Positions 45,415-48,862 of a stretch of DNA of 64,000 nucleotides are shown one piece after another; positions within the stretch are counted from its first letter, which is position 1, and the number at the start of each line of letters is the position of its first letter. The stretch lies in the NCBI GenBank assembly GCA_031272775.1, contig JAISTB010000020.1:1-64000 (forward strand), given 5' to 3'. Both the position numbers and the translations under genes were made by a program. The notes below the pieces were generated by a model. That model did not search any database. It was not told where the DNA came from and saw only the letters and a list, made by a program, of their open reading frames with translations. Source of the stretch: Fusobacteriaceae bacterium (GTDB taxonomy: Bacteria; Fusobacteriota; Fusobacteriia; Fusobacteriales; Fusobacteriaceae).

Positions 45415-47520
45415 ATGATGAACACGATGTTGGACTTGTTTGGCGTGGACTATTTTTCCGAGCTGGAGCTGAAAAGCCGCGTGCCCGGACCTGTTTTCAA
45501 GAAATTCAAAGCGGTGCAGGTCGGGAAGGAAGAATTGTCCCTGGAAGTAGCGGATGTAATCGCCAACGCGGTAAAAAACTGGGCCACCGAGAGGGGCGCC
45601 ACCCATTTTACCCACTGGTTTCAGCCGCTGACGGACCTGACGGCGGAAAAGCATGAATCCTTTGTGACGGCCAATCCCGACGGGACCGTATTGTCCCAGT
45701 TTTCCGGAAAAGAAATCATCAAAGGGGAAACGGACGCGTCTTCTTTTCCGAGCGGAGGCCTGCGGGCGACGTTTGAAGCGAGAGGAAACACAATCTGGGA
45801 TACGAATTCCCCGATGTTTATCCGGGGCGCGGGGACCGCGAGGACCCTTTATATCCCGACGGCCTTTATCGGCTACAACGGCGAGGCCCTCGACAAGAAA
45901 GTGCCGCTGTTGAGAGCCGCCCAGGCCCTGAACACGCAGGCGCTCCGGGTGCAGAGACTCCTTGGGGATACGGAAACGAGCCGGGTTGACGTGACGCTGG
46001 GTTGCGAGCAGGAATACTTCCTGATCGACAAGGCCTTTTATGACAGACGGCAGGACATCGCTCTGGCAGGTCGGACTTTATTCGGAAGCCTTCCGCCCAA
46101 GGGCCAGGAACTGAGCGATCACTATTACGGGACCATCAAGGACAGAGTCAAGACCTTCATGGGCGAACTGGACCAAGAACTCTGGAAGATCGGACTTATC
46201 GCCAAGACGGAACACAACGAAGTTGCGCCGAATCAGTTTGAGCTGGCGCTGATGTTTTCCACGGTAAATGTCGCCGTAGACCAGAACCACCTCGTGATGG
46301 ATACGATCAAGAAAGTCGCCACGAGACACGGTCTGGCCGCCCTTTTGCATGAAAAACCCTTTGAGGAGATCAACGGCTCCGGTAAGCACTGCAACTGGTC
46401 GCTGGCCACCGATACAGGCGTGAACCTCCTCGATCCCGATACGCTGACCAAGGACAATCTCCAGTACTTCCTGTACATCACGGCCGTCATCGAAGGCGTG
46501 GACCGCTACGCGGACATCCTTAGGAGTACGACCGCCACTCCCGGAAACGACCACAGACTGGGCGGACACGAAGCTCCGCCGGCCATCATTTCCATCTTCC
46601 TCGGGGATCCGCTGACGAATCTTCTCGAAAACGTCGAGCATTTCGAAAGCGCCAAGGGCGGAGAGGAAACGATCTCCGTGGGCGCGCTGATTCCCAAATT
46701 CGAAAAGAACTTCTCCGACAGAAACCGGACGTCCCCCTTCGCCTATACCGGCAACAAGTTTGAGTTCAGAATGCCCGGTTCCAGCGCGGCCGTATCGACC
46801 CCGATGTTTGTCATCGCGACCATCGTGGCCGACATCCTCAAAGAATACGCCGACATCCTCGAGAAGGTAAAGGGACCCATCAAACCCGCCATCATCAAGC
46901 TCGTCAAAGAACATTACGCGAAACACAAGAGAATCGTCTTCAACGGCAACGGCTACGACGAGGCTTGGGTCAAGGAAGCGAAGAAACGCAAGCTGTCCAA
47001 CCTGGCCAATACCGTGGAGGCCCTCCCCGTATACACGAGAAAGGACACCGTGGAGCTTTTCGAGCGGCACAAGGTCCTGACCGGCGCTGAGCTCAAATCC
47101 CGTTACGAAGTCTATGTGGAACGCTATGACAAACAGTCCAACATCGATCTTTCCATCGCGATCCGCATGGCGAAAAACGAGATCTATCCCTCGGTCGTAA
47201 AATATGTGACGAAGATTTCCAAGATGATCGTCACGGTAGCCCAGGCCCTGGGAGACGCGAAATACCTGAAATATGACAAGGAGCACCTCGAAAAAGTCCT
47301 GAAGCTTAAGACGGCGCTCAAGGACACGATCAGCGACCTGAGCAAGGGACTCGAAAAGGCCGACGGCACCGAGGACACCTACAAACGGGCCCTCGTGTAC
47401 CGGGACGAGCTGTTCCCCATTTACGACAAGATGCGCGGCATCGTGGATCAGCTGGAGCTTCTGGTGGACAAGAGCGACTGGTCCATCCCCACTTACTACG
47501 ATCTGTTGTTCAAGCTGTAA
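45415..47520 (+). CDS. glnN: Glutamine synthetase type III
   Basis: GlnN makes glutamine from glutamate, ammonia and ATP and is the main nitrogen-assimilating enzyme in many anaerobes. Type III enzymes are large and have motifs such as CEQEYFLID, KTEHNEVAPNQFE, EKPFEEINGSGKHCNWS and GGHEAPPAI, all present here. The 701 residues match the family (about 700) and are clearly longer than type I. The ATG follows AGAAGGGGG; a second ATG is next to it. It has two promoters and its own terminator. Confidence 0.97.
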   Translation: MMNTMLDLFGVDYFSELELKSRVPGPVFKKFKAVQVGKEELSLEVADVIANAVKNWATERGATHFTHWFQPLTDLTAEKHESFVTANPDGTVLSQFSGKEIIKGETDASSFPSGGLRATFEARGNTIWDTNSPMFIRGAGTARTLYIPTAFIGYNGEALDKKVPLLRAAQALNTQALRVQRLLGDTETSRVDVTLGCEQEYFLIDKAFYDRRQDIALAGRTLFGSLPPKGQELSDHYYGTIKDRVKTFMGELDQELWKIGLIAKTEHNEVAPNQFELALMFSTVNVAVDQNHLVMDTIKKVATRHGLAALLHEKPFEEINGSGKHCNWSLATDTGVNLLDPDTLTKDNLQYFLYITAVIEGVDRYADILRSTTATPGNDHRLGGHEAPPAIISIFLGDPLTNLLENVEHFESAKGGEETISVGALIPKFEKNFSDRNRTSPFAYTGNKFEFRMPGSSAAVSTPMFVIATIVADILKEYADILEKVKGPIKPAIIKLVKEHYAKHKRIVFNGNGYDEAWVKEAKKRKLSNLANTVEALPVYTRKDTVELFERHKVLTGAELKSRYEVYVERYDKQSNIDLSIAIRMAKNEIYPSVVKYVTKISKMIVTVAQALGDAKYLKYDKEHLEKVLKLKTALKDTISDLSKGLEKADGTEDTYKRALVYRDELFPIYDKMRGIVDQLELLVDKSDWSIPTYYDLLFKL

Positions 47521-47550
47521 GAAATTCCGGAAAAAAGGGAGAAAAGAAGG

Positions 47551-47578
47551 GGCCGTCCGGCGGGGCGGCCTTTTTTTT
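47551..47578 (+). terminator. Terminator of glnN
   Basis: GGCCGTCC and GGGCGGCC pair with one G-U around GGCG, followed by eight T residues. It starts 30 bases after the glnN stop. Confidence 0.9.
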
Positions 47579-47607
47579 GAAAAAAGTGGAAAAAATCGAA
47601 AAAATGC

Positions 47608-47636
47608 TTTCATTTTTATGAATAATGTGCTATACT
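47608..47636 (+). promoter_or_regulatory. Promoter of the S10-spc ribosomal protein operon
   Basis: TTTCAT (47608-47613) and TATACT (47631-47636) are 17 bases apart, with a TGC extended -10 element. The leader to rpsJ is about 65 bases and contains a small GCAAAG/CTTTGC hairpin. Confidence 0.75.
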
Positions 47637-47706
47637 ATTAAAGTTCGCTGAGCAAAGCGGGCTTTGCTTTGCATGGCATATATTAGTGAAGGAGGTGCGA
47701 AAGTTC

Positions 47707-48018
47707 GTGGCGTCTGATAAAATAAGAATTTACTTGAAGGCTTACGATCATTTCCTCTTGGACGAATCCGCAAAGAAGATTGCTGAAGTGGCAAAAAAAT
47801 CGGGGGCTGATATCGCGGGACCCATGCCCTTGCCGACAAACATCAAAAAGTACACGGTGTTGCGGTCTGTTCATGTGAACAAGGATTCCCGGGAGCAGTT
47901 CGAAATGCGTATTCACAGAAGAATGATCGAGATCAACAATTCCACACAGAAGACAATACCATCATTAATGGCAGTTAACTTACCAGCCGGTGTTGGAATA
48001 GAAATCAAGCAAATCTGA
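47707..48018 (+). CDS. rpsJ: 30S ribosomal protein S10
   Basis: S10 binds the 30S head and also acts in transcription antitermination with Nus[16 protein letters not shown] near the start and GVGIEIKQI at the end are typical. The start is a GTG at 47707, nine bases after AGGAGGTG; the 103 residues equal the E. coli length. It is the first gene of the operon but is followed by an unusually long spacer of about 200 bases before rplC. Confidence 0.97.
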
Positions 48019-48211
48019 TTTTGCCTGATTTTTCAGGAAAACATCTTTTGGACGGAATTCTTAAGAGAATTTTTGGAGACACGATGAGAAATCATTGGAA
48101 ACAATGATCTGATGATTCTTACAGAATAATACAAGTTGATGCTTTTTTTAAAGCCGGTGGGGAGAACCACCAGGCGGCGTTGTCAACCAATATATTATTT
48201 GATGGAGGTAA
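48019..48211 (+). other. Structured spacer between rpsJ and rplC
   Basis: This AT-rich stretch inside a ribosomal operon encodes no protein I can support. It has several hairpins: CCTGA/TCAGG (48024-48037), ATCATTG-GAAA-CAATGAT with a GNRA tetraloop (48091-48108), and GGTGG/CCACC (48156-48171) extended by GCC/GGC. The last hairpin lies about 32 bases before the rplC ribosome binding site. It could be a regulatory leader for rplC and the genes after it. Confidence 0.5.
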
Positions 48212-48220
48212 ATGAAAGAT

Positions 48221-48862
48221 ATGACAGGAATTTTAGCGAAAAAAATCGGTATGACACAGATATTCGAAAACGGAAAGCTTGTTCCGGTTACGGTCGTAGA
48301 GGCGGGACCCAACTACATCCTGCAGAAAAAGACCGTGGAATCGGACGGCTATACGGCGATCCAGCTGGGTTTTGACGAAAAAAAGGAAAAAAACACGACA
48401 AAACCGATTCTGGGAATCTTTAAAAAGGCCGGGGTCAAGCCCCAGCGCTTTGTAAGAGAAATGCGGGTGGATTCTGTGGACGGCTTCGAACTGGGACAGG
48501 AGATCAAGGCGGATGTCTTTACGGGCGTCGAGTATGTTGACGTTGTCGGGACTTCCAAAGGTAAGGGAACCTCGGGCGTCATGAAGCGCCACGGCTTTTC
48601 CGGAAACCGGGCGTCCCACGGCGTATCCCTCAATCACAGACTGGGCGGATCCATCGGTATGTCTTCGACGCCGAGCGAGGTGCTCAAAGGAAAACGCATG
48701 GCCGGCCGGCACGGAAACGCGACGGTGACGGTGCAGAACCTCAAGATCGTCAAGATCGACGCGGACAACAACCTGATCCTGTTGAAGGGAGCGGTACCCG
48801 GCTCCAAAAACGGATATATCGTATTGAAACCCGCAGTGAAAAAAATCGGTCAGCAGGGGTAA
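48221..48862 (+). CDS. rplC: 50S ribosomal protein L3
   Basis: L3 is an early-assembly protein near the peptidyl transferase centre. The [15 protein letters not shown] start and the [12 protein letters not shown] loop are family marks. Two ATGs are possible, at 48212 (three bases after GGAGG) and 48221 (twelve bases after); the family N-terminus favours the second. This gives 213 residues. Confidence 0.95.

Follow-up and report, generated by a model that had tools for sequence, protein, structure and literature searches.

A structured RNA element was found between rpsJ and rplC, the genes for S10 and L3, in the analysed window (the whole 64,000-nucleotide stretch of Fusobacteriaceae DNA), and comparison with related genomes demonstrates that it is a real, phylum-wide structured leader. 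The element is probably a previously undescribed ribosomal-protein leader, whose regulatory role we infer. An internal regulatory leader of rplC had been proposed here in a sequence-only reading of the window; the structured leader is supported by its conservation, its single copy per genome, its fixed site by the Shine-Dalgarno (SD) sequence and its covariation, while the regulatory half of that proposal is treated below as a model.

The rpsJ-rplC spacer and its conserved core

The rpsJ stop codon ends at 48018 and rplC most likely starts at 48221, so that the spacer amounts to 202 nt. Two in-frame ATGs are available to rplC, and 48221 is the one agreeing with the SD spacing of relatives; the GTG start taken for rpsJ (Table 1) is a presumptive one picked by SD spacing. 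The gap of about 200 bases reported in the sequence-only reading was thus confirmed, and it is long against the gaps at all 77 non-fusobacterial comparison loci, mostly from Actinobacteria (12-188 nt, median 34; below 100 nt in 73 of 77). The spacer is also structured, as had been supposed: its minimum-energy fold of -49 kcal/mol, which includes both the outer and the inner stem of the conserved core, compares with -38.9 +/- 3.9 in dinucleotide shuffles (z -2.59), only two of 200 of which folded as well. A degraded gene, named earlier as the explanation that would speak against a leader, is not supported, since what is kept in the DNA is a pair of RNA arms, separated by inserts whose length is free, and not a reading frame; a 79-aa frame opening with TTG at 48136 is a mechanical ORF only.

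Table 1. Features of the rpsJ-rplC region in the window (f1, the window's own family; P0, accessory upstream hairpin region)
Feature	Position	Strand	Remarks
rpsJ (S10)	47707..48018	+	gene upstream of the leader; tblastn used in relatives
rpsJ-rplC spacer	48019..48220	+	202 nt
GAAA-tetraloop hairpin AUCAUUG-GAAA-CAAUGAU	48091..48108	+	in P0 of f1
Conserved leader core	48119..48208	+	covariance-model match, 43.8 bits, E 6.7e-8
Outer stem, 5' strand GAAUAAUA	48124..48131	+	
Internal loop, 5' side CAA	48132..48134	+	loop composition taken over 64 loci
Inner stem, 5' strand GUUGAU	48135..48140	+	
Insert	48141..48181	+	family-specific; U-run, GGUGG/CCACC hairpin, GAACCAC(G/C)AGG-like block
GGUGG...CCACC hairpin	48156-48171	+	inside the f1 insert
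Inner stem, 3' strand GUCAAC	48182..48187	+	
Internal loop, 3' side CAAUA	48188..48192	+	
Outer stem, 3' strand UAUUAUUU	48193..48200	+	
rplC SD sequence GGAGG	48204..48208	+	adjoins the outer stem
rplC (L3)	48221..48862	+	first gene 3' of the leader; S10-operon genes follow

The core, which ends in the rplC SD sequence, consists of an outer and an inner stem separated by an asymmetric internal loop (CAA / CAAUA). Its form in f1 is CUUACAG-AAUAAUA-CAA-GUUGRC-insert-GUCAAC-CAAUA-UAUUAUU-UGAUGGAGG, and the smallest form, GCUUAGUA-CAA-GUUGG-loop-CCAAC-CAAUA-UAUUAAGGAGG, occurs in the family f4, which is probably Leptotrichiaceae. Outside f1 the insert between the inner-stem strands is absent or short, and the smallest versions, found in several lineages, have a short inner stem and a total length of about 45-60 nt. 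The outer stem abuts the SD sequence in f1 and overlaps its AAG in f4. Over 64 loci the 5' side of the loop is CAA, CAU, CAC, UAA or UAC and the 3' side CAAUA, CGAUA or CUAUA, positions 1, 3, 4 and 5 of the latter (C, A, U, A) being invariant. Two further stretches, CUUACAG (48119-48124) and GAACCACGAGG in the insert, are conserved in f1 only and have no clear pairing partner.

Both hairpins emphasized in the sequence-only reading, one closed by a GAAA tetraloop and one before the rplC SD sequence, are present, but they proved to be accessory and lineage-specific, the conserved element lying 3' of the tetraloop. The P0 hairpin ends just 5' of CUUACAG in most f1 members, and in 25 f1 sequences its helix of 11 pairs was formed in 85.8% of cells (at most 54.5% for slid versions), with both-sided changes at seven of the 11 pairs; RNAalifold predicted no pairs from the upstream-hairpin alignment A3, in which MAFFT places the window's genus poorly. 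The hairpin is absent from three short spacers (L024, L029, L036), and the GAAA tetraloop is not conserved among relatives. Family-specific hairpins just upstream of a site between two cistrons might also suggest an RNA-processing or stability element, at which an endonuclease cut at the stem would separate the rpsJ and rplC messages and make their dosage differ without protein feedback. This explanation is improbable, considering that the most conserved bases form the loop and the strand touching the rplC SD sequence and not a long duplex, and that the element can shrink to its smallest size with only a short inner stem.

Distribution and covariation

In a set made up of the window's own genome and 60 others of its order, rplC was located in 59 of the 61, and the common core was found in the gap before rplC in all 59 as well as in three named records, one of which duplicates genome G002. 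A covariance model (R1), built from 25 sequences of the same genome set that match it by construction, detected the element, always as a single copy, in 87 of the 98 phylum genomes (76 of the 79 good ones). The 11 misses comprised eight assemblies without an rplC match, two genomes (G054 and G091) in which inspection by eye revealed a core carrying inserts some 100 nt long, and G061 (about 0.8 Mb), which has TAAGGAGAAATAATG between rpsJ and rplC and truly lacks the core. Altogether, of 90 genomes presumed to contain rplC, 89 have the core, a count that includes 20 model hits, all in f1, entered without an rplC look-up or neighbour check; for 69 genomes (the 59, eight others, and G097 and G091), a check of the neighbours placed the core between rpsJ and rplC. 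Outside the phylum, a search with the model through 398 genomes from the phylum to which G100 belongs yielded nothing at E <= 0.001. Taken alone this result shows little, but the same stricter filters had yielded the 87 of 98 in the home phylum; 10 further outside genomes also gave no match (best E 2.6).

RNAalifold predicted the same core fold from both alignments. In alignment A2, 97.2% of the cells pair, whereas slid versions attain 20-59% (maximum 59.4%); the covariation score was 0.199 versus 0.146 +/- 0.010 in shuffles, none of 500 reaching it. In anchored counts over 64 loci, duplicates included, inner pairs 1-6 were formed in 64, 64, 64, 64, 64 and 63 loci and outer pairs 1-7 in 64, 64, 64, 61, 63, 62 and 61. 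Parsimony on a tree of rpsJ DNA (72 loci) gave ten both-sided changes in the inner stem (two, two and six at pairs 4, 5 and 6), so that the compensatory changes which the sequence-only reading had asked to see in relatives, and the conservation along with them, are both at hand. Three such changes were counted in the outer stem (pairs 5, 6 and 8). The one at pair 8 carries little weight, since no more than 43 of the 64 loci form this pair. Pair 7 differs between f1 (AU) and f4 (CG or UG), a change that the tree routes via unpaired states. Covariation support is weaker for the outer stem than for the inner one.

The pairing of the outer stem is nevertheless kept between f1 and f4 despite different letters. 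Only nine of the 448 cells of outer pairs 1-7 are non-standard, all of them in families f2, f3 and f6, where the stem is partly broken. At loci of these families (L037, L039, L179), the loop has U in place of C and the 3' strand finishes, towards the SD sequence, in AUAUAUGG, so that four AU pairs could form an outer stem in a shifted register.

Proposed regulation and ligand

The layout is the one that would be expected of a ribosomal-protein leader. Two features of such leaders were found, a structured RNA directly before a ribosomal-protein gene (the core ends in the rplC SD sequence) and a structure conserved with covariation. Considering the computed conservation, position, pairing and marginal outer stem, it is likely that the element is a cis-acting ribosomal-protein leader inside the S10 operon, with a ligand whose binding would bring about repression.

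Free-RNA folding gave mean pair probabilities of 0.85 for the inner and 0.08 for the outer stem over 22 f4 loci, with the SD sequence unpaired at 0.83; the corresponding means over 38 f1 loci were 0.42, 0.35 and 0.50, the conserved f1 pairs being predicted weakly because the long insert competes. In the proposed mechanism, the free mRNA would have its inner stem formed, its AU-rich outer stem mostly open and the rplC SD sequence largely accessible, and rplC and the genes after it would be translated. An S10-operon protein in excess over rRNA would then bind the CAA/CAAUA loop and clamp the outer stem. Since the outer stem meets the SD sequence, abutting or overlapping it according to the family, a ligand bound to the near-invariant loop could shut off the start site and block rplC initiation, and rpsJ, upstream of the element, would escape repression. 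The mostly free SD sequence in f4 would also suit a constitutive element, a hairpin that holds the rplC start open independently of rpsJ translation and without any ligand. It seems quite improbable, as a near-invariant asymmetric loop across the phylum exceeds the needs of an open start site and the outer stem near the SD sequence pairs in both f1 and f4 despite its letter differences. Under the favoured model of a protein-bound leader, coupling to rpsJ may add to control in f4: in most f4 genomes the outer stem starts no more than a few bases from the stop codon of rpsJ, and a ribosome finishing rpsJ would therefore melt it.

A transcription attenuator or an internal promoter region, instead of a translational operator, is highly improbable. 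The U-run in the f1 insert and the strong sigma-70-like promoter (TTGACA, 17 nt, TATAAT) between rpsJ and the core in G097 (L179, G097:C55), a deep lineage of the same class, might hint at such a region; however, scanning 47521-48260 revealed no terminator-like site, the spacer has no plus-strand promoter-like site, and the promoter was seen by eye in the G097 lineage only. Upstream of rpsJ, the window carries an extended -10 of its own (TGcTATACT) and a hairpin before the rpsJ SD sequence (47628-47706), possibly a second leader. A promoter lies directly before rpsJ in most of f1, accompanied in f1 relatives by a lineage-variable hairpin, and at many f2-f4 and f6 loci (L037-L048, L060, L179) rpsJ follows what we take, from its C-terminal sequence, to be the end of tuf.

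Resemblance of a ribosomal-protein leader to the rRNA site of its protein is frequent, although not obligatory. Sequence-level tests did not detect it here: the covariance model produced no convincing look-alike in 23S rRNA (seven loci, best 10.3 bits) or 16S rRNA (five loci, best 9.6 bits), and a two-strand scan yielded 0-9 hits per 23S locus, where 20 single-base shuffles of one such locus averaged 4.25. A candidate mimic of the 23S rRNA 3' end (ACCAAUACUAAU against ACCAAUAUAUUA) was rejected as unproven: the rRNA CCAA can pair with an upstream UUGG, the mRNA counterpart sits in a loop, and the matching pairing register is not kept across relatives.

As for the ligand, uL4 is tentatively ranked first because it is the known regulator of the E. 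coli S10 operon (available part of PMC10931766). Close behind it, and possible at somewhat lower confidence, comes uL3, which the first downstream gene encodes. A different S10-operon protein (S10 among these) is an unlikely ligand, and it is just as unlikely that none of the S10-operon proteins serves. Among L3, L4 and S10, which had been suggested by the sequence-only reading, S10 ranks last in likelihood, since it is encoded upstream of the element; S10 is NusE, also an antitermination factor. A more specific version, rather doubtful, is that uL3 itself is the repressor, that the leader uncouples S10 from the rest of the operon, and that the loop has no rRNA sequence counterpart; if true, it would represent bacterial uL3 autoregulation with the feedback point placed after rpsJ.

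Comparison with known systems

An Rfam search, suggested earlier as a check, gave no match to any family in the window at gathering score, and with permissive settings all matches in 47500-48700 fell far short of the gathering scores; the element exposes a gap in Rfam. No description of an rpsJ-rplC leader was found in the open-access literature, which was the scope of the search, and none is described in the available parts of PMC7247131, PMC11109978, PMC8040213, PMC11005410, PMC8632094, PMC10931766 and PMC7160235. PMC8632094, as far as its available part goes, included Fusobacteria, and its supplements may hold an unnamed candidate. No control element of the S10 operon was found described for Fusobacteriota, to which this leader would contribute one; its place after rpsJ amounts to a testable claim on which ribosomal proteins are co-regulated, and its small core suits direct binding and structure work.

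Four non-fusobacterial loci (L103, L127, L133, L193) share a different stretch, AUCCGCUGUA...AGGAGG, which follows a hairpin immediately 5' of rplC; apart from L193, the titles of the genomes carrying AUCCGCUGUA name Firmicutes, Clostridiales and Lachnospiraceae, and the rplC-proximal stretch of L103, L127 and L133 has no Rfam match. This clostridial element was rejected as a homologue, its sequence being different; a pattern search hit four of 199 genomes, and two of the hits precede rplC. The S10-Clostridia leader (RF03136) is likewise a leader of the S10 operon but differs in sequence and fold; it lies upstream of rpsJ in L103, L127 and L133, whereas the fusobacterial element lies between rpsJ and rplC, and it has no match in the window or in L008, L149 and L179.

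Other leaders share some properties with the present one. In the available part of PMC7247131, which covers computationally described leaders, the L4 leader of Archaeoglobi is listed with rplC as its first regulated gene but is archaeal, the S4 leader of Fusobacteriales is fusobacterial but belongs to rpsM-rpsK-rpsD-rpoA-rplQ instead, and the table gives no rplC or S10-operon leader for Fusobacteria. The candidate rpsJ leader of C. difficile also belongs to the S10 operon, but is placed in the rpsJ 5' UTR and in three Peptostreptococcaceae genera by the available part of PMC11109978. The S10 leader of E. coli, bound by uL4, lies in the 5' UTR before rpsJ, and in contrast to it the fusobacterial element follows rpsJ and has no terminator that could be found; both would nonetheless be feedback elements of the S10 operon, and the class of ligand is likely the same.
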